Below are positions 25,927 to 33,888 of a DNA stretch of 37,366 bases, piece by piece. The position numbers and the translations under genes are program-made. Under the pieces are notes generated by a model, which saw only the letters and a list, made by a program, of their open reading frames with translations, was not told where the DNA came from and made no database searches. Source of the stretch: Psychrobacter piechaudii (GTDB lineage: Bacteria; Pseudomonadota; Gammaproteobacteria; Pseudomonadales; Moraxellaceae); assembly GCF_900162825.1 (NCBI RefSeq), contig NZ_FUGE01000172.1, forward strand, positions 1-37,366. The letters are read 5' to 3'. Positions within the stretch are counted from its first letter, which is position 1. Every line of letters begins with the position of its first letter.

Positions 25927-25954
25927 GTATTAGCCACACCATTACTTATTCACT

Positions 25955-25985
25955 AAAAAAAGCTGGGGGTTCTCAGCTTTTTTTT
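25955..25985 (+). terminator. Rho-independent terminator after rpoD
   Basis: A-run plus AGCTG (25961-25965) pairing with CAGCT (25974-25978) around GGGGTTCT, followed by eight T. It lies about 30 bases after the rpoD stop. Confidence 0.9.
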
Positions 25986-26013
25986 ACTTTAAAAACAATG
26001 GGAGATGCCAATT

Positions 26014-26477: not shown

Positions 26478-26792
26478 ATTTGGATGTTATTTAGGTTCTA
26501 TTTTAGCCACTCAAACTGAATTAATTTACAGGTTAAAACTTTTACCTGAACAAATCTAAACCCATTTACTCTCGTTTACAATTTAGTAAAAAAAGTTTTT
26601 CTCAGCTTTTTTTAGCAACTAAATTTCTTGACATAACCGCTAAGCAATAGCCTATCGGTAGTTGCAAATTTGCAAGCATTTTTCATGGCTAATTATTCAT
26701 TTCAATTCTCTCAATTGAACTAGTAACTGCCAATTTGTCAAGATAGTAAATTTTCTTTTTTTCCTTTATATTGTGCCTACATCATAGAAACC

Positions 26793-26840
26793 ACCCTATA
26801 TCTTGTGTTTTATCTGAAACACAGGCACTATAGGTACCAG
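26793..26840 (+). promoter_or_regulatory. Candidate tandem NrdR boxes
   Basis: NrdR represses ribonucleotide reductase genes through two 16-bp boxes spaced about three helix turns (consensus near ACACTATATATAGTGT). ACCCTATATCTTGTGT at 26793-26808 matches well. A second, weaker site at 26825-26840 keeps the left half GCACTATA, with its start exactly 32 bases after the first. Position upstream of nrdA supports the call; the second box's right half is poor. Confidence 0.55.
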
Positions 26841-26904: not shown

Positions 26905-29181
26905 ATGACAAATATGGATAAGATTAAAGTAATGAAACGAGACGGCCGCCTGGAGCCAATCGATTTAGATAAAATCCATAAGGTCATCACTTGGGCCGCA
27001 GAAGGATTGGTTAACGTCTCCGTTTCTCAAGTAGAGTTAAAATCTCATATCCAGTTTTACGATGGTATTAAGACTCGTGATATTCATGAGACCATCATCA
27101 AAGCGGCTGCAGATCTTATTTCAGAAGACACTCCAGACTATCAGTATTTGGCTGCCCGTTTGGCGATTTTCCACTTACGTAAGATTGCCTACAATCAATT
27201 TGAGCCGCCACATCTATACGACCATGTGGTTAACTTAACTGAGTCTGGCAAATATGATGAGCATATCTTGCAAGACTACTCTCGTGAAGAGTTTGACGAG
27301 CTAAATGAGTATATCGATCACTGGCGTGACATGACTCTAGCTTATGCTGCTGCTGAGCAAATGACTGGTAAATACTTGGTACAAGACCGTGTTACCAAGA
27401 AAGTTTACGAAAGCCCTCAGTTCTTATACGTGCTAGTGGGTATGTGTCTGTTTGCCTCTTACGATAAGTCTGAGCGTATGGACTACGTCAAACGCTTTTA
27501 TGACGCTGCCTCTACCTTCAAGATTTCACTGCCAACCCCAATCATGGCAGGTGTGCGTACCCCATCACGTCAATTCAGCTCATGTGTACTGATTGAGTGT
27601 GGTGACAGCTTAGACTCTATCAACGCTACCACCAGTGCCATCGTACGTTACGTATCACAGCGCGCTGGTATCGGTATTAACGCCGGTAACATTCGTGCCC
27701 TAGGTAGTCCTATCCGTGGCGGTGAAGCACAGCACACCGGCTGTATTCCCTTCTATAAGCTGTTCCAAACGGCGGTTAAATGCTGTTCACAAGGCGGTGT
27801 CCGTGGTGGTGCAGCGACCTTATTCTATCCACTGTGGCATTTAGAAGTAGAGTCACTACTGGTGCTAAAAAACAACCGTGGTATAGAAGACAACCGTGTG
27901 CGTCACATGGACTACGGAGTGCAAATCAACCGTACTCTATATACCCGCTTGATTAAAGGTCAGGACATTGCCTTATTCTCACCGTCAGACGTGCCAGGTC
28001 TATACGAAGCTTTCTTCGCTGATCAAGACAAGTTTGAAGAGCTATACACCAAGTATGAGCAAGATGAGAATATCCGTAAGCGCCATGTACCTGCCGCCGA
28101 CTTATTCAGCTTATTAATGCAAGAGCGTGCCAGCACCGGTCGTATCTACATCCAGAACGTTGACCACTGTAACACCCACAGTCCGTTTGACCCAAGCGTG
28201 GCCCCTATCCGCCAGTCAAACTTATGTATGGAGATTGCTCTACCAACTAAGCCACTAGACAACATCAATGATGAAAAGGGCGAAATCGCTCTATGTACTT
28301 TATCTGCGGTGAACTTAGGTGAAGTTGAAGACTTACAAGACATTGAAGAGCCAGCAGAGCTAATCGTACGTGCCCTAGATGCGTTACTTGATTACCAAGA
28401 CTATCCAGTAAAAGCCGCTGAAAATGGCAGTATGAACCGCCGCACCCTAGGCGTTGGTGTGATCAACTACGCTTACTACTTGGCTAAAAATGGGGTGAAA
28501 TACTCAGATGGCTCAGCCTTAGGTCTAACCCATCAGACTTTTGAAGCGCTTCAGTACTATTTACTAAAAGCGTCAAACAAGTTGGCAAAAGAAAAAGGCG
28601 CTTGCCCTGCGTTCAATGAGACCACCTACTCACAAGGTATCCTACCGATTGATACCTATAAGTCTGACTTAGACCAGATTTGTAATGAGCCATTGCAGTT
28701 AGACTGGGAAGCTTTGCGTAGTGAGATTAAAGAGCATGGCCTACGCAACTCTACTCTATCAGCGTTAATGCCTTCTGAGACTTCAAGTCAGATTGCCAAC
28801 GCAACTAACGGTATTGAGCCACCACGTGGTCTGGTATCGGTAAAAGCATCAAAAGACGGTATCTTGAAGCAAGTAGTGCCTGATATCTTAAACTTAAGAG
28901 ACAACTACGAGCTGTTATGGCAGATGCCAAATAATGACGGCTACTTAAAGCTAGTGGCAATCATGCAGAAGTTTATTGATCAGAGTATCTCTGCCAACAC
29001 TAACTATGACCCAACTCGTTTTGAGGGCAACCGTGTGCCAATGAAGGTGCTATTAAAAGACCTACTAATGGCTTATAAGTTCGGGGTTAAGACTCTGTAC
29101 TATCACAACACTCGTGATGGGGCCAACGATGCTCAGGCCGATATCGATGACGGCTGTGCCAGCGGTGCTTGTAAGCTTTAA
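26905..29181 (+). CDS. nrdA: Class Ia ribonucleotide reductase alpha subunit NrdA
   Basis: 758 residues; reduces ribonucleoside diphosphates to deoxy forms together with NrdB. An ATP-cone allosteric domain occupies the N-terminus (VMKRDGRLEPIDLDKIHKVI). Active-site residues are in place: C227 in FSSCVLIECGDS, N439-L-C441-M-E443 and C464 in ALCTLSAVNLG. The C-terminal redox pair is in DDGCASGACKL, as in E. coli NrdA. A GGAG site lies 7 bases before the ATG. Normally followed directly by nrdB; here 3.5 kb of accessory DNA intervenes, so nrdB may depend on another promoter or long readthrough. Confidence 0.98.
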   Translation: MTNMDKIKVMKRDGRLEPIDLDKIHKVITWAAEGLVNVSVSQVELKSHIQFYDGIKTRDIHETIIKAAADLISEDTPDYQYLAARLAIFHLRKIAYNQFEPPHLYDHVVNLTESGKYDEHILQDYSREEFDELNEYIDHWRDMTLAYAAAEQMTGKYLVQDRVTKKVYESPQFLYVLVGMCLFASYDKSERMDYVKRFYDAASTFKISLPTPIMAGVRTPSRQFSSCVLIECGDSLDSINATTSAIVRYVSQRAGIGINAGNIRALGSPIRGGEAQHTGCIPFYKLFQTAVKCCSQGGVRGGAATLFYPLWHLEVESLLVLKNNRGIEDNRVRHMDYGVQINRTLYTRLIKGQDIALFSPSDVPGLYEAFFADQDKFEELYTKYEQDENIRKRHVPAADLFSLLMQERASTGRIYIQNVDHCNTHSPFDPSVAPIRQSNLCMEIALPTKPLDNINDEKGEIALCTLSAVNLGEVEDLQDIEEPAELIVRALDALLDYQDYPVKAAENGSMNRRTLGVGVINYAYYLAKNGVKYSDGSALGLTHQTFEALQYYLLKASNKLAKEKGACPAFNETTYSQGILPIDTYKSDLDQICNEPLQLDWEALRSEIKEHGLRNSTLSALMPSETSSQIANATNGIEPPRGLVSVKASKDGILKQVVPDILNLRDNYELLWQMPNNDGYLKLVAIMQKFIDQSISANTNYDPTRFEGNRVPMKVLLKDLLMAYKFGVKTLYYHNTRDGANDAQADIDDGCASGACKL

Positions 29182-29603
29182 GTGCACAAGATGAGCCTCA
29201 GGATGGGAGCTTTTTAGACATTGAGAAATATGCGAGGCATGGGTAGTTTATTTTTAATGGCTATGTCCGTGCCTCGTCCCTCGGCGGAGAGCGGTTCATT
29301 TCAAGATAAATATTACGAATTTGTTTTAACGAAATTTATTGTTTGTTAAATGACAGGCAATAAAATGGCAAAGACGATAAATCATCTTTGCCATTGGAGA
29401 TATTAAATATTGGCGTATTTAATACCTGAAAGTTAAGACTATCCACTTTCACAAGGGAAATTTGAATAGACTGTACTTCTTCATAAAGGTATATTCTAAA
29501 TCAAATATTCGTACTTGTCCAAATTATTCTCCAAGTGATGGTCATCTATAGCTATTTAAAATTATAATTAAATCGCTATAGTATTCTGTATAGGAGACTC
29601 CTA
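29182..29603 (+). other. Region between nrdA and the first accessory gene
   Basis: 422 bases without a supported gene. It contains two hairpins. CGAGGCATGG (29233-29242) pairs with CCGTGCCTCG (29267-29276) with one G-U. ATGGCAAAGA (29365-29374) pairs with TCTTTGCCAT (29385-29394). Neither is followed by a T-run. The second could act as a weak terminator or an mRNA-stabilising structure after nrdA. Confidence 0.45.
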
Positions 29604-30170
29604 ATGGACTCTTTATCTTTATTTAATACCTTTTTATCAGTTATTGGTTTATTAGCTAATTTTCAGTCATCAAGAGAGCATGCGAGTTTAGAAGATTTTA
29701 TAGAATGGTTATATGAAAATGATAATAGAAATACTGCTGATATTATCAAAAATAACATTGAGTTAAAAAATCAGATTGCACTCTTTATGAATCAAAACCA
29801 CGAGGAAACTTTAAAGCAGTTATCGAATCTTAATAATCTAATGGTTTCGATTGCTCAACGAATTGATGGATTAAGTGGAATTGCAAACAACTTTAAAACA
29901 GAGTATCAGTTATCAGAACAAGCATTAAGAGTTCTCAGAGAATTCGTTAATTCCGAAGGTCTCCACATCTGGCGACTACCGTCATTAGGTGGCACAACCT
30001 ATGCTATTGATGCAAACCAAACGTTAGAAATAAGTGAGCCTAGATTTATTGATGATGATTTCAGTACTATGACTGAGTTGGGGTTGTTAAAACATGATAT
30101 TAACCCTCAAGGATATCATAGATATAAAATTACAAAACTAGCCGTAGAATATATCAATTCAATAAAGTAG
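29604..30170 (+). CDS. Unrecognised accessory protein (island gene 1)
   Basis: 188 residues, not recognised. The N-terminus has a hydrophobic stretch (SLFNTFLSVIGLLANF) that could be a membrane anchor or an amphipathic helix. About 40-100 is probably helical or coiled coil (IIKNNIELKNQIALFMNQNHEETLKQLSNLNNLM). The C-terminal third (LRVLREFVNSEGLHIWRLPS to TELGLLKHDINPQGYHRYKITKLAVEYI) looks like a winged-helix-type domain. A GGAG site precedes the ATG. DNA is AT-rich compared with nrdA. The TAG stop is the TAG of the GTAG that starts the following palindromic repeat, so the original C-terminus may have been altered by that insertion. Confidence 0.6.
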   Translation: MDSLSLFNTFLSVIGLLANFQSSREHASLEDFIEWLYENDNRNTADIIKNNIELKNQIALFMNQNHEETLKQLSNLNNLMVSIAQRIDGLSGIANNFKTEYQLSEQALRVLREFVNSEGLHIWRLPSLGGTTYAIDANQTLEISEPRFIDDDFSTMTELGLLKHDINPQGYHRYKITKLAVEYINSIK

Positions 30171-30230
30171 GGTGCGTCTCATGCATCAACCAAACATTAA
30201 GATTAAATCGGTGCGCGGGGCGCACCCTGC
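30167..30230. repeat. REPIN-like repeat A, copy 1
   Basis: 64-base element with the shared structure of repeat A: GTAGGGTGCG at one end and its (here slightly mutated) inverse at the other, each end folding as a short hairpin around a constant AT-rich centre containing AAACATTAAGATTAAATCGG. This copy has CATGCATC for CACGCACC and ends CCCTGC instead of CCCTAC. It overlaps the stop codon of the gene before it. Confidence 0.85.
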
Positions 30231-30250
30231 CAAATAAAAACGGCTTTAAA

Positions 30251-30333
30251 ATTAACAGTTAAACAAACCCAAAAAACAAAAGGTGAAAAAGGTAAAATCA
30301 CGACACATTTAATCTTTTTCCAAACAAATAATG
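30251..30333 (+). pseudogene. Decayed copy of the nrdB leader and first codons (copy 1)
   Basis: From ATTAACAGTTAAACAAACCC through AAGGTGAAAAAGGTAAAATC this matches the real nrdB leader (32704-32754) almost base for base. It continues into the coding part with ATG changed to ACG, then AATCTTTTTCCAAAC against AATCTTTTGCCAAAC. Similarity fades after about 33 bases of nrdB coding sequence. It cannot encode anything. It marks an old junction: nrdB, or a duplicate of its start, once lay here. Confidence 0.85.
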
Positions 30334-30371
30334 GCGTGCTATAAACTACGGCCTATTTTTAAAATGATCTT

Positions 30372-30530
30372 GTAGGTTGGGTGAAGCTAGCGACACCTAA
30401 CAATTTAAATATTAAGCATTGTTGGATCTCGCTCCTCGACACCAACCTACTGTAAGCTAATAAGCCGTAGGGTGCGTCTCACGCACCAATCAAACATTAA
30501 GATTAAATCGGTGCGCGAGGCGCACCCTAC
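30372..30530. repeat. Composite repeat B1-A2 (REPIN-like)
   Basis: 159 bases: repeat B (30372-30450), a 16-base spacer TGTAAGCTAATAAGCC, then repeat A copy 2 (30467-30530). Repeat B has GTAGGTTGG at one end and CCAACCTAC at the other, with inner hairpins such as GGTG...CACC. Repeat A has GTAGGGTGCG / CGCACCCTAC with hairpins GGTGCG-TCTCA-CGCACC and GGTGCG-CGAGG-CGCACC. Both kinds begin with GTAG, the tetranucleotide that precedes REP hairpins mobilised by RAYT (TnpA-REP) enzymes. No RAYT gene is in the window. Confidence 0.85.
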
Positions 30531-30642
30531 CTCTCTCAATAATTGATTTAGGCTTTAAAAGTTACGCAGGATGCACTATACACAAATAATAGTTAAGACT
30601 TGAATTACGCGTTTCATTTAAAAATTATAAAAAGGTCTTCAG

Positions 30643-31173
30643 ATGACTGATATCCCATATTTAGGTAGCCTAGAAAAATACCAATTTGATAACTGGCTAA
30701 TTAGTCAGCCTGTAACCGTTAAAGCTTTAGATGATAAAAAATATCGCTTTGTTTTAGAAGATTACGAACAAGACCAAAATAAAGAAGAGTTTCATCAGGC
30801 CGTAGCTAATTTTTTGACATTAGATAATAGCGTTCTAAAACAAGCACAAGATGATATCTATCGATATTATAAAGATGTAGAAGCGTCATTGGATGGGGAG
30901 GATATTGTTAAGATTGATGATCTAAATGATGTCTGGCGTCATATACAAATAGAGTGCACCCCTTTAGTCACACGTCGCCCATATGGTGACAAGGCGATTT
31001 ATATATCACTAGAGTGTGAATGTGATTGGGAACCAGAACACGGCTTACAGATTGTGTTTAAGCAAGGACTATCAATTAATAAAGTAGGTGAATATGATGG
31101 TCATCTTTCTTATGTTGATAGTTATGCAGACCCTAAACTTGAAAATATTGTGTATCATTCATTTTCTAACTAA
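30643..31173 (+). CDS. DUF6985-like accessory protein (island gene 2)
   Basis: 176 residues. The start IPYLGSLEKYQFDNWLIS and the later block RRPYGDKAIYISLECECDWEPEHGL with VGEYDGHLSYVDSYAD resemble, from memory, a family of small soluble proteins annotated as DUF6985. This was not checked against a database. Acidic, no signal peptide, no membrane segment. Proteins of this style often occur as single genes in variable loci and some are suspected immunity proteins; no toxin partner is seen here. An AAAAAGG ribosome site precedes the ATG. Flanked on both sides by near-identical 159-base composite repeats. Confidence 0.65.
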   Translation: MTDIPYLGSLEKYQFDNWLISQPVTVKALDDKKYRFVLEDYEQDQNKEEFHQAVANFLTLDNSVLKQAQDDIYRYYKDVEASLDGEDIVKIDDLNDVWRHIQIECTPLVTRRPYGDKAIYISLECECDWEPEHGLQIVFKQGLSINKVGEYDGHLSYVDSYADPKLENIVYHSFSN

Positions 31174-31200
31174 TAGAGCTGACACCCTCATAAAAGAATC

Positions 31201-31359
31201 GTAGGTTGGGTGAAGCTAGCGACACCCAACAATTTAAATATTAAACCATGTTGGGTCTCGTTCCTCGACACTAACCTACTGTAAGTTAATAAGCCGTAGG
31301 GTGCGTCTCACGCACCAACCAAACATTAAGATTAAATCGGTGCGCGGGGCGCACCCTAC
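31201..31359. repeat. Composite repeat B2-A3 (REPIN-like)
   Basis: Same 159-base architecture and orientation as 30372-30530: repeat B copy 2 (31201-31279), spacer TGTAAGTTAATAAGCC, and repeat A copy 3 (31296-31359). A few substitutions distinguish the copies, for example CACCCAAC for CACCTAAC and GTTGGGTCTCG for GTTGGATCTCG, mostly in stems or loops. The two composites bracket island gene 2 as direct repeats. Confidence 0.88.
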
Positions 31360-31505
31360 CTCTATCTATAATTGAATTATTCATTCAAAGAAACGGTCTA
31401 TTGTCATTTAATCTCAACTAATATATTTGAATAACTATTAATTCTGACACGCTTTAAATAATTTATGATTATTTATATTTCTTGACTTTTATTTAGGTAA
31501 ATAGC

Positions 31506-32180
31506 ATGACAGACTTTAATACACTTATTGACCTTGATAGTATTTTATCTTCATTAGATAGTATGAAGCATCTAAAAGATATAGCTAAAGATGCTCTTAT
31601 AGGTATAAATAAATATAAAGAATATAATCTACTAGAGTTTTTTAAATGTATTGACACTAATTTAGATACTATGAAGGAAGAGGAAAGAATTAAATTAAGA
31701 GATCGAGTTAATTCTGAAGAAGGAAAGATTCTTTTAGCCAAGTACGTTGATGAAGCGACACATGTAGATAGTAAAATAGCACGTATGGCTTTAGCTTTAT
31801 TATTCTGCGAAGATCCCGATTTTATATTTGAAAACTACTATGAAAGAGTAGTATTAACTAGTTTAAAAGACTTAGATGATACTACAATTGAATTTTTTAT
31901 TGATGCTACTACCAATATAGAAATTCATAAAATAGACAAACTACCATATGATCGAGTGGTGATCAGTAATGAGAGTAAGTTAATTCTTAAGGGCTGGAAT
32001 CCTGAAGATATTGGTATATTAGTTAATTACCTCAAAAGTCTAAGCTTGCTTTTACCAGATCCATGTTCTTCATCTCCTTATGCGGGTAGAGATGATAATT
32101 GGATGGTTGAATATGGTATCAGCGATAATACAAAAAAAATTGCGAGCCTATTTGATAAGGCTAGATCACTTTGTAGATAA
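31506..32180 (+). CDS. Unrecognised accessory protein (island gene 3)
   Basis: 224 residues, not recognised. Mostly helical, acidic, no membrane segment or signal. The middle block (about 40-105, LLEFFKCIDTNLDTMKEEER, EGKILLAKYVDEATHVDSKIARMALALLF) recalls helical cytoplasmic proteins found in variable loci, but I cannot name a family. The C-terminus carries SLSLLLPDPCSSSPYAGRDDNWMV. Codons are strikingly AT-rich (AGA arginine, ATA isoleucine, TTA leucine), unlike nrdA or nrdB, suggesting acquisition. The ATG context AGGTAAATAGCATGACAGACT resembles the nrdB start AGGTAAAATCATGACATACT. Confidence 0.6.
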   Translation: MTDFNTLIDLDSILSSLDSMKHLKDIAKDALIGINKYKEYNLLEFFKCIDTNLDTMKEEERIKLRDRVNSEEGKILLAKYVDEATHVDSKIARMALALLFCEDPDFIFENYYERVVLTSLKDLDDTTIEFFIDATTNIEIHKIDKLPYDRVVISNESKLILKGWNPEDIGILVNYLKSLSLLLPDPCSSSPYAGRDDNWMVEYGISDNTKKIASLFDKARSLCR

Positions 32181-32210
32181 CAATTTTAAGAAAAGTAGAA
32201 GCTTGATAGC

Positions 32211-32243
32211 ACTGAATCTTTCGTCAAACTCCAAAAGATCAGC
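32211..32243 (+). pseudogene. Decayed fragment of the nrdB 5' end (copy 2)
   Basis: Thirty-three bases matching nrdB coding positions 32762-32794 with four mismatches (for example CAAACTCCAAAAGATCAGC against CAAACTCCAAATGATCAGC). A weaker match continues upstream (GCTTGATAGCACT against TCATGACATACT), with the start codon lost. It follows island gene 3 by 31 bases. Confidence 0.75.
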
Positions 32244-32346
32244 ATTTTGATATCAATCCTCGATGCTAACGTATCAAAAGCGTAATGTAGACAAGGGTTT
32301 ATTAAACCCATATGAAATATTTAAACACTTAGTTTTAGAGATAATT

Positions 32347-32589
32347 ATGAGTATTTTTTCACGTTTTCAAGAATTAGAAAGCAAGCATAAAATTAGGTTG
32401 CATGAGGGTGAGAGCTTTAAACAAGCTTTGTATAACGGAAGAATGACAGACTCAGTAGACTGCATTATTGATAAAATTGAATTAATTATAAAACACTATC
32501 CTGATAGCAAAGGTATTTCTTTATCCACATATAGTTCAGATGAAACTTCTGATGAGACATTTTGCTATGCTGTAGTAATACCGTCATAA
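32347..32589 (+). CDS. Small unrecognised accessory protein (island gene 4)
   Basis: 80 residues from the ATG at 32347, which has GAGA about 6 bases upstream; an in-frame ATG at 32263 would add 28 residues but has no ribosome site and lies next to the nrdB fragment. The sequence begins MSIFSRFQELESKHKIRLHE, then has a helix DSVDCIIDKIELIIKHYP and a final strand-like block FCYAVVIPS. No motif recognised. AT-rich like gene 3. Size and style would suit an immunity or antitoxin-type protein, but that is a guess. Confidence 0.5.
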   Translation: MSIFSRFQELESKHKIRLHEGESFKQALYNGRMTDSVDCIIDKIELIIKHYPDSKGISLSTYSSDETSDETFCYAVVIPS

Positions 32590-32606
32590 ACGACTATCAT
32601 CCAGCC

Positions 32607-32671
32607 GTAGGGTGCGTCTCACGCATCAATGCAAACATTAAGATTAAATCGGTGCGCGGGGCGCACCCTAC
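32607..32671. repeat. REPIN-like repeat A, copy 4
   Basis: 65 bases, same structure as the other A copies, with GTAGGGTGCG and CGCACCCTAC ends. One extra base lies in the constant centre (AATGCAAACATT against AATCAAACATT). It is 83 bases before the nrdB ATG, just upstream of the native nrdB leader. Confidence 0.87.
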
Positions 32672-32754
32672 CCACAATTAAAAACTACTTCAAGATTTAA
32701 GAAATTAACAGTTAAACAAACCCAAAAAAAACGAAAGGTGAAAAAGGTAAAATC

Positions 32755-33888
32755 ATGACATACTCAATCTTTTGCCAAACTCCAAATGATCAGCTCAAAG
32801 AGCCGATGTTCTTTGGTCAGCCGGTAAACGTGGCACGTTACGACCAACAGAAGCATCCTATCTTTGAACAGCTTATCGAAAAGCAGTTATCATTTTTCTG
32901 GCGTCCAGAAGAGGTTGATGTCTCAAAAGACCGTATCGATTACAGCAATTTATCGAGCCATGAACAACACATCTTTATCAGTAACCTAAAGTATCAAACC
33001 TTGCTTGACTCGATTCAAGGTCGTAGTCCAAACGTAGTGCTATTACCACTGGTGTCTATCCCTGAGCTTGAGACCTGGATTGAGACCTGGTCATTCTCAG
33101 AAACCATTCACTCACGCAGTTATACCCACATTATTCGTAACATCGTTAACGACCCAGGCATAGTCTTCGACGACATTATGCAGAACGAGCACATTCTACA
33201 ACGGGCTTCAGACATCGCTTTTTACTATGATGACTTGTATCAGCATTCACAGCTATACAGCTTGTTTGGTGCAGGCACTCATATGGTCAATGGTGAAGAG
33301 AGGTATGTTGACTTAAGAAAACTAAAAAAACAGCTATACCTATGCTTGATGGCGGTTAACGTTCTCGAAGCCATTCGCTTCTATGTGTCATTCGCTTGTT
33401 CGTTCGCTTTCGCTGAGCGTAAGCTTATGGAAGGTAACGCCAAAATTATTAAATTAATTGCTCGTGACGAAGCGCTACACCTAACCAGTACCCAACACAT
33501 GATCAATATCTTAGCCTCAGGTAAAGATGATCCAGAAATGGCTGAAATTGCTGAAGAGTGCTACGAAGAGAGTATCGACATCTTCCGTAAAGCGGCTGAG
33601 CAAGAGAAGGAATGGGCCGGCTATCTGTTCAAAGATGGTTCTATGATTGGTCTGAACAAAGACATCTTGTGTCAGTATGTTGAGTACATTACCAACTTAC
33701 GTATGGAGGCTGTGGGTCTGCCTGCTCTTTTCCCAAACTCTAAGAGCAACCCTATCCCTTGGATCAACACTTGGTTGTCATCGGACAACGTACAAGTTGC
33801 ACCCCAAGAGACTGAGATCAGCTCCTACCTAGTGGGTCAGATTGACTCTGACTTATCAGACAGTGACTTTGATGATTTCGAACTGTAA
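32755..33888 (+). CDS. nrdB: Class Ia ribonucleotide reductase beta subunit NrdB
   Basis: 377 residues; holds the diferric-tyrosyl radical cofactor. Iron ligands and radical residue line up with E. coli: D85, E116 and H119 with Y123 in [15 protein letters not shown], then E205 in VLEAIRFY and E239/H242 in ARDEALHL. The acidic C-terminal tail [14 protein letters not shown] is the part that docks on NrdA. The leader AGGTGAAAAAGGTAAAATC supplies the ribosome site. Intact despite two decayed copies of its 5' end lying upstream. Confidence 0.98.

Follow-up and report, generated by a model that had tools for sequence, protein, structure and literature searches.

The nrdA–nrdB interval of Psychrobacter as a probable exchange locus for small gene sets, with hairpin-marked cargo edges in part of the genus and degraded copies of the nrdB start in one genome

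The window, that is, the whole analysed stretch of 37,366 nucleotides from Psychrobacter piechaudii (contig NZ_FUGE01000172.1), contains nrdA (26905–29181) and nrdB (32755–33888), the genes for the large and small subunits of class Ia ribonucleotide reductase (Pfam Ribonuc_red_lgC, 1e-140, and Ribonuc_red_sm, 3e-51, respectively), separated by 3.57 kb. This gap encloses four co-directional open reading frames (ORFs) of 188, 176, 224 and 108 (or 80) amino acids, a set of hairpin repeats and two degraded copies of the start of nrdB. As the first-pass annotation of this DNA held, the genes in the gap are AT-rich: the GC content is 0.337 for the gap as a whole and 0.30–0.35 for the four ORFs, compared with 0.455 for nrdA and 0.435 for nrdB. 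Taken with the corresponding gaps of other genomes, these features make it probable that the nrdA–nrdB interval of Psychrobacter is an exchange locus, and that the lineage of the window stacked several segments there, each stranding the old right end of the locus.

The gap is a property of the genus. A nrdB gene is found in 98 of 100 genomes of the genus, and the 98 upstream stretches fetched from 97 genomes make, together with the window, 99 entries; eight of these were dropped because the fetched stretch carries no nrdA, which leaves 91 measured gaps (below, L numbers denote loci or gaps, G numbers genomes, g numbers genera and C numbers contigs). The gaps range from 204 to 9452 bp, with a median of 2409 bp and quartiles of 2037 and 3087 bp; 89 of the 91 are at least 1 kb long, and near-empty sites exist (L112, 204 bp; L162, 423 bp). 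Among 23 named Psychrobacter loci, the nrdA–nrdB distance is 1117–8106 bp (22 measured), and the neighbouring intervals are short: 44–327 bp between nrdB and fer2 (21 measured), -2 to 177 bp between fer2 and degP (20 measured), and 417–589 bp, plus a single value of 1383 bp, between DUF493 and nrdA (20 measured). Outside the genus, nrdA and nrdB lie at most 100 bp apart in 36 of the 51 measurable loci and more than 500 bp apart in 6.

The content of the gaps is highly variable. The cargo table took in the 90 of the 91 gaps that are at least 400 bp long and holds 331 mechanically called ORFs of at least 80 amino acids, 295 of which are co-directional with nrdA and nrdB; they form 96 clusters, including 54 singletons. 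Seventy families comprise proteins of at least 120 amino acids, and 83 of the 90 gaps carry one to three such families. Comparison of the 89 genomes that possess a co-directional ORF of at least 120 amino acids outside the cluster of a common 122-amino-acid gene yields 56 distinct gene sets, and the GC content of the gap (mean 0.357) is below that of nrdB (0.444) in all 87 gaps compared. The proposal, made from the window alone, that a recurrent landing site for small gene sets lies here thus holds across the genus. Conserved flanks combined with highly variable content are the mark of hotspots bounded by core genes, and we class the interval as a putative core-gene-bounded defence hotspot, of a variant that resides in the operon of one essential enzyme.

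Searches with PADLOC and Pfam recognise known or candidate anti-phage families in 26 of the 90 gaps, or in 24 when two partial KAP matches are set aside. These counts are carried over through the clusters, with the representatives scanned and the other members unscanned; 60 proteins, four of them from the window, were scanned singly with PADLOC and the remaining representatives were pooled, with the best 25 of 315 families listed, so that 26 of 90 is likely to be a lower bound. The families include cyclic oligonucleotide-based anti-phage signalling systems (CBASS) with cyclase, E1-E2, JAB and NucC components (L117, L156 and L175), other CBASS (L130, L145 and L191), fused PARIS AriAB (2e-193, in L138 and L149), Drt8 (2e-138, in L160), a TIR and caspase-like pair (L137), and PD-T7-4, PD-T4-6, PDC-S15, PDC-S20, PDC-S31, AbiU and AbiH. 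RelE-like genes are present in 35 of the 90 gaps, and the cluster of the 122-amino-acid gene together with a RelB-like antitoxin in 73 of 90; this cluster is not found in the gaps of the window and of L111–L117. The 122-amino-acid protein is itself conserved, rich in lysine and alanine, and encoded about 100 bp before nrdB in many genomes (e.g., L118, L119 and L157), in many cases behind a pair that resembles RelBE.

The E1-E2 CBASS family occurs in 6 of the 100 genomes and lies beside nrdA or nrdB in all six: three copies are located between the two genes, two follow nrdA at a distance of about 1.05 kb on contigs with no nrdB match, and the copy in G037 is split over two contigs, with the larger piece upstream of nrdB at a contig end. 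PDC-S31 is found in 17 genomes, 7 of them with a gap location, and AriAB in 5, where the two strongest matches are in the gap and three weaker ones elsewhere, although the gap makes up about 0.1% of the genome. An ordinary non-coding expansion, or a decaying operon with chance or leftover ORFs, is a highly improbable source of the gap: the wide separation of nrdA and nrdB in many Moraxella-like genomes, or their location on different contigs, would agree with such decay, but the prevailing co-direction of the ORFs (295 of 331), the multi-gene defence systems in place and the occurrence of E1-E2 CBASS at this site in six cases of six speak against it. An assembly error seems an unlikely source of the gap as well, given that 90 other genomes show it; the stack of segments itself is seen in one assembly of 300 contigs.

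Two pieces of the window's gap derive from the start of nrdB. The larger, fossil 1, had been given as 30251–30333; the copy is real and its extent is larger, with 30167–30325 aligning to 32607–32780 at 83.9% identity over 174 columns (self-BLAST, E 9e-49), so that it consists of a block of hairpin (R2, see below), leader and nrdB start. The reported decay of the start codon is confirmed by ACG at 30300, where nrdB has ATG; the BLAST alignment stops at 30325, and in-frame likeness is gone by about 30345. Fossil 2 likewise agrees with its first description (32211–32243, 29 of 33 bases or 88% identical), and BLAST lengthens it to 32191–32243, which matches 32743–32794 at 79% over 53 columns (E 2e-6). 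A chance origin of these matches is rejected because their scores are far above those of all controls. Smith–Waterman alignment to nrdB positions -25 to +70 scores 72 for fossil 1 and 49 for fossil 2, against a maximum of 25 among 1958 and 3368 tiles of the same size (for fossils 1 and 2, respectively) from the gaps of other genomes, and a BLAST scan with 96 nrdB starts as queries gives 66.2 and 43.7 bits, against at most 32.8 in Markov-chain random gaps and at most 28.3 in nrdA coding sequence. Both degraded copies claimed by the first-pass annotation are therefore genuine, and the matches persist against randomised sequence, where their disappearance had been named as grounds for refutation.

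At the sensitivity of the BLAST scan, nrdB-start fragments above the control level are confined to the window, 1 of the 91 gaps (two strong matches in L205 are its own nrdB start, misplaced by a split match, and the size of that gap is overstated). The comparison of related genomes that had been proposed as a check thus has a mixed outcome: the gap is present in them, the cargo is mostly different, and they contain no extra pieces of nrdB. As to the donor of the nrdB start, the first 60 nucleotides of the window's nrdB are 93% identical to those of L114, 90% to L117 and 80% to L112, and the coding part of fossil 1 is, over 45 nucleotides, 73% identical to TKNDA-type starts and 67% to its own nrdB; these differences of two to eight bases are hints only.

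Three of the four genes of the window have relatives at the same locus in other species. The 188-amino-acid protein (cargo gene 1) belongs to a group of 4 proteins, itself included, among 5.8 billion, and has a homologue at the same locus in L122; it shows no Pfam match above the cut-off and no PADLOC match at 0.01, and its AlphaFold2 (AF2) model, with a predicted local distance difference test (pLDDT) score of 72, gives weak MarR-like, winged-helix or ribosomal matches (E 6e-3 or worse, none at E 0.001). The DUF6985 gene (cargo gene 2) is found in L114 directly before an R1 hairpin, an R2 hairpin, the leader and nrdB, as one contiguous segment. The 224-amino-acid protein (cargo gene 3; 9 proteins, itself included, among 5.8 billion) has a homologue encoded directly after nrdA in L115; it has no Pfam match above the cut-off (Phage_int_SAM_6 is below threshold, E 0.026), and its AF2 model (pLDDT 81) has no match in the PDB at E 0.001 (best E 0.18). 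No function follows from the two predicted structures. Cargo gene 4 likewise matches nothing in Pfam above the cut-off, and a tblastn search of the remaining 89 gaps that reach 400 bp detects no homologue of it, apart from one chance-level match (E 4.1). In L111, the nearest relative, the nrdA tail, one R1-R2 block and the leader recur and nrdB is 95–100% identical in windows of 60 nucleotides, yet none of the four genes is present in its gap, which indicates fast turnover of cargo.

Table 1. Features in and around the nrdA–nrdB interval (positions of the window)
Feature	Position	Strand	Basis or remark
Two NrdR-box-like sites before nrdA	26761..26808	+	starts 26761 and 26793, 32 bp apart
nrdA, class Ia ribonucleotide reductase large subunit, 758 aa	26905..29181	+	Pfam ATP-cone, Ribonuc_red_lgN, Ribonuc_red_lgC
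LEFT element, short inverted repeat plus the sequence after it, upstream of cargo	29354..29524	+	found in 16 gaps, window included; folded
Cargo gene 1, 188 aa	29604..30170	+	N-terminal helix, coiled coil and C-terminal winged-helix-like fold in AF2 model
R2 hairpin copy 1, GTAG-type REP/BIME	30167..30231	+	repeat finder, self-BLAST
Fossil 1, copy of nrdB leader and start	30232..30345	+	ACG at 30300; alignment and BLAST scans
R1-R2 hairpin block copy 1	30360..30561	+	89.6% identity to 31191-31390
Cargo gene 2, DUF6985 protein, 176 aa	30643..31173	+	PF22481 3e-41
R1-R2 hairpin block copy 2	31191..31390	+	R1 begins 27 nt past the DUF6985 stop
Cargo gene 3, 224 aa, mostly helical in AF2 model	31506..32180	+	AF2 model; homologue in L115
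Fossil 2, degraded nrdB-start copy	32191..32243	+	alignment and BLAST scans
Cargo gene 4, small ORF, 108 aa (80 aa from ATG at 32347)	32263..32589	+	ORF call
R2 hairpin ahead of the living nrdB leader	32603..32672	+	repeat finder, self-BLAST
nrdB leader	32673..32754	+	alignment
nrdB, class Ia small subunit, 377 aa	32755..33888	+	PF00268

The window therefore strings together relatives of the segments in L114, L115 and L122, with pieces of right ends between them, and the simplest account of it, we infer, is the addition of new segments beside the resident one. In the genus, the cargo differs by species and is bounded by the nrdA stop codon on one side and, on the other, by a conserved right-hand block ahead of nrdB; the edge between cargo and block is usually close behind the cargo stop and is often marked by a GTAG-type hairpin. 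Under the stacking account, an incoming segment, presumably gained through uptake of related DNA, would several times in the lineage of the window have joined the resident segment rather than taken its place, probably through recombination in nrdB at one end and short or illegitimate homology, such as that of the hairpins, at the other. Each addition would strand the previous right end (hairpin, leader and nrdB start), which would then decay.

The first-pass annotation had gone further and proposed repeated insertion at the nrdB start. Earlier 5' ends of nrdB are indeed present here, and the two copies each close a gene-bearing segment, as the living nrdB is preceded by a gene and a hairpin; a mobile cassette that targets the nrdB start and duplicates its 5' end with each insertion would produce this arrangement. 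As a general rule, however, the proposal is not supported: the other 90 gaps lack an nrdB-start fragment above the control level, the right edge in the 73 genomes where it can be placed is upstream of the conserved block and not at nrdB, and no integrase or transposase domain exceeds the cut-off in the seven window proteins searched. Such a cassette is accordingly unlikely, and the presence of fragments in 1 of 91 gaps indicates that duplication of the nrdB start is not the usual route. An integrase-borne island is rejected because the Pfam search of the same seven proteins finds no integrase domain above the cut-off between nrdA and nrdB of the window; with regard to an integron, the search, which covered these seven proteins, shows no integrase above the cut-off. 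Among the 25 of 74 families listed for a pool of 80 cargo proteins from elsewhere, an rve integrase-core domain of the transposase type occurs in one protein.

The fossils could also have arisen within the genome itself, where unequal recombination at the R1 and R2 hairpins would have duplicated parts of the gap with little entry of new DNA. Both repeats occur in the window's own genome inside the gap only (at up to 3 mismatches), as direct repeats of 65–202 nucleotides with 84–96% identity, and fossil 1 is contiguous with an R2 copy; fossil 2, in contrast, has no adjacent hairpin, and the genes between the repeats are mutually unrelated in BLAST clustering, three of them having relatives at this locus in three species. 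This route alone is therefore rather doubtful, and the genes themselves came from outside, whatever part the repeats may have played.

R1 and R2 have the hallmarks of GTAG-type repetitive extragenic palindromes (REPs) and bacterial interspersed mosaic elements (BIMEs): each combines a GTAG head with a palindrome, and they form head-to-head inverted pairs, with folds of -33.0 and -38.7 kcal/mol. The many dispersed copies usual for such elements are not found in the window's own genome, where two copies of R1 and four forward copies of R2 (at 30167, 30467, 31296 and 32607) are detected at up to 3 mismatches; among relatives, R1 is present in 0–5 copies in 15 genomes, and R2-like matches number up to 17 (in G023). 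R1 occurs in 32 gaps, and 20 of its 29 full-length copies, following 15 cargo families, begin no more than 60 nucleotides past a cargo stop, compared with 16% for random intergenic places. When R1-bearing gaps with different cargo are compared in pairs, 39 of the 206 pairs remain homologous for at least 50 nucleotides rightward of R1, and none does so leftward.

More generally, the right edge of the variable cargo can be placed in 73 genomes, upstream of the conserved block before nrdB, which in many of them includes relBE and the 122-amino-acid gene; the leftmost right-hand edge lies within 60 nucleotides of the last cargo stop in 46 of the 73, and GTAGG stands at the edge in 29 (3.3 expected). 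Eight genomes with seven cargo families are 85–97% identical from R1 to nrdB over about 800 bp, and their homology ends at the same base, immediately before CGTAGG; in five of the eight (four families), a short stretch to the left of the edge is not shared with gaps that hold other cargo. The cargo of L141 and L205 is also found in L128, where 97.6% identity continues for 42 nucleotides after the stop and a different right-hand block follows, which indicates that cargo and right-hand block have been re-paired at the edge. The left side is less clear, with a block in 12 genomes and no fixed site seen. The LEFT element precedes several cargo families in 16 gaps, that of the window among them, and may represent a common promoter or a left edge. 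REPs number 18 in 68,072 bp of gap sequence and 8 in 365,118 bp elsewhere in 22 loci, figures that are uncorrected for coding content.

These sharp edges fit recombination or breakage at REP hairpins. A specific agent could be a RAYT (REP-associated tyrosine transposase, HUH tyrosine type) that processes REPs and, by cutting at them, fixes the join of cargo and right-hand block. The base-exact edge in eight genomes, the two blocks joined to one cargo and the excess of GTAGG would all be expected from such an enzyme, and in G055, G036 and G011 copies of R1 are found no more than about 0.2 kb from Y1_Tnp (RAYT-type) genes. Against it stand the lack of a fixed left-end site in the 12 genomes with a left block, an edge that does not border cargo in 3 of the 8 genomes, the general location of REPs downstream of genes, and the window's own genome, where no R1 lies beside a Y1_Tnp gene; a RAYT-driven edge is thus improbable.

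Several observations weigh against the exchange-and-stacking interpretation. Homology past R1 is shorter than 50 nucleotides on either side in 167 of the 206 pairs, which ties R1 to a single right-hand block in a subgroup only. In L136, L139 and L142, the bases to the left of the edge are not cargo but pieces of repeats that occur in 17 to 24 other gaps, for which reason the REP-headed right-hand block itself may be the mobile unit. A permissive tool reports 2,260 putative REPs in Psychrobacter arcticus, according to a passage of PMC12306157, and GTAG repeats are described as downstream of coding regions in PMC3733652; since REPs are this abundant and generally follow genes, their ordinary placement may account for some of the edge signal. 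The rpoD–DUF493 interval is variable as well (78 bp in the window, 25927–26004, and 163–2649 bp in the 10 measured of the 23 named loci). A test of flank homology over 80 of the 90 gaps (excluded were eight whose loci are odd, split or unusually long, and two in which nrdA is incomplete) finds, for 22 pairs that share left cargo at 85% or more, no aggregate excess of identity in windows of nrdA and nrdB, and long-tract homologous replacement is accordingly unsupported. Competence of the strain is uncertain because the ComEC domain in its genome (G000) is in two pieces, on contigs C265 and C55, one with an internal TGA. Stacking rests on one case, the fossils being found in one genome only. As for a defensive role, a recognised defence gene is not seen in 64 of the 90 gaps, and PADLOC gives no convincing defence model at 0.01 for the window's four genes, which are defensive by inference (one match, 0.003, for the 224-amino-acid protein); further, the placement figures above (6/6, 7/17 and 2/5 genomes), which together with the 26 of 90 gaps hint at over-representation of anti-phage systems, come from three families picked from gap matches and so overstate any general preference.

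The gap lies downstream of what appears to be the nrd promoter. The two NrdR-box-like sites before nrdA in the window, at 26761 and 26793, match 11 and 14 of the 16 positions of the consensus ACACWATATATWGTGT. Across 87 genomes, the best NrdR-like site before nrdA scores at least 12 in 81, compared with 6 after mononucleotide shuffling and 3 in the 350 bp before nrdB, and the two best sites are spaced by 32 bp in 36 of the 87. On the + strand of the window's gap, no terminator-like site turns up in a scan with the consensus. With NrdR-like sites before nrdA, few before nrdB and no such terminator, it is possible, judging from sequence, that read-through from the nrd promoter supplies transcripts of both the cargo and nrdB. 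The comprehensive combination, in which REP hairpins, with or without a RAYT, set the base-exact edge, defence genes are exchanged with no integrase involved, and the NrdR-controlled nrd promoter drives the cargo, is quite unlikely to hold in all its parts.

In Moraxella-like genera (g7, g10 and g14), nrdA and nrdB are in most cases widely separated, oppositely oriented or placed on separate contigs, and in the Moraxella-like genomes G181, G189 and G112 they are less than 300 bp apart; the hotspot may have preceded the break-up of the operon in Moraxella-like genomes. Genus g15, Acinetobacter by inference, has a reductase that is only about 26–31% identical, and on contig C6 of G204 from this genus the nrdA and nrdB matches are about 19.6 kb apart; a passage of PMC7273328 gives A1S_3563 of Acinetobacter baumannii as a hypothetical gene between nrdA and nrdB. 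The largest gap outside Psychrobacter, 2204 bp in Pasteurella canis (L096), is far above that of most relatives. Two records titled Streptomyces cinereus and Pseudomonas stutzeri (L060 and L089) encode an NrdB that is 79% identical, as in Moraxella and Pasteurellaceae, and may be mislabelled or contaminated. Within the genus, G048 has two nrdB loci, on contigs C14 and C30, one split after residue 37 and the other divergent (84%) and with no nrdA on the fetched stretch.

A search of the open-licence literature in PMC finds no description of a Psychrobacter nrdA–nrdB hotspot. The closest hotspots are the core defence hotspots of Pseudomonas aeruginosa (PMC10250203) and the defence islands of Escherichia coli (PMC10121019), which likewise combine conserved flanks with highly variable cargo and many small anti-phage systems. 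The Psychrobacter site differs from these in that it lies between two subunit genes of one essential enzyme, its cargo is mostly co-directional, its right edges are REP-marked in part of the genus, and no integrase is found in the window's copy. With the GTAG REP/BIME and RAYT systems, as characterised in PMC2817692 and PMC3733652, R1 and R2 share the GTAG head, the palindrome and the head-to-head pairs, and R1 has Y1_Tnp genes as neighbours in three relatives; unlike those systems, they occupy a single locus of their own genome and mark the edge of exchanged cargo. A REP element is carried by the nrdAB transcript of E. coli and discussed in the context of translational regulation in a passage of PMC12306157; the likeness is that of a REP in the nrdAB operon of another gamma-proteobacterium, and this passage does not mention cargo between the genes. 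Homology-facilitated illegitimate recombination, treated in PMC3240628, joins DNA through homology at one end and short or no homology at the other and could add DNA beside a resident gene, as the stranded nrdB starts suggest for the window.

Toxin loci also strand gene ends, as seen in orphan rhs, CdiA and MafB tips and in orphan immunity genes of type VI secretion systems (T6SS); the likeness lies in a displaced end of a conserved gene that decays beside a new module, whereas in Psychrobacter the remnant comes from the 5' end of a housekeeping gene, to which the cargo bears no relation. Homing endonuclease genes occur in phage nrd genes and thus resemble the present case in being inserted in or between nrd genes, the Psychrobacter locus being on a bacterial chromosome; Pfam detects no homing endonuclease domain in the window's cargo. 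Homology-facilitated illegitimate recombination itself has also been studied in Acinetobacter baylyi.

The gap breaks an operon whose two genes lie close together in most of the non-Psychrobacter relatives measured, and its hairpins and stranded nrdB starts form a natural record of how genes may be swapped without an integrase. Being a single, short and easily amplified interval in which many cargo families match nothing named, it lends itself to mining for new defence genes. Phages with mutations in ribonucleotide reductase evade two defence systems, Clover (PMC12265719) and DRT9 (PMC12483538), which makes the physical linkage of host reductase genes with defence genes worth testing; what is seen here is linkage in position, and if the cargo were driven from the NrdR-controlled promoter, defence in Psychrobacter would be tied to deoxynucleotide supply.

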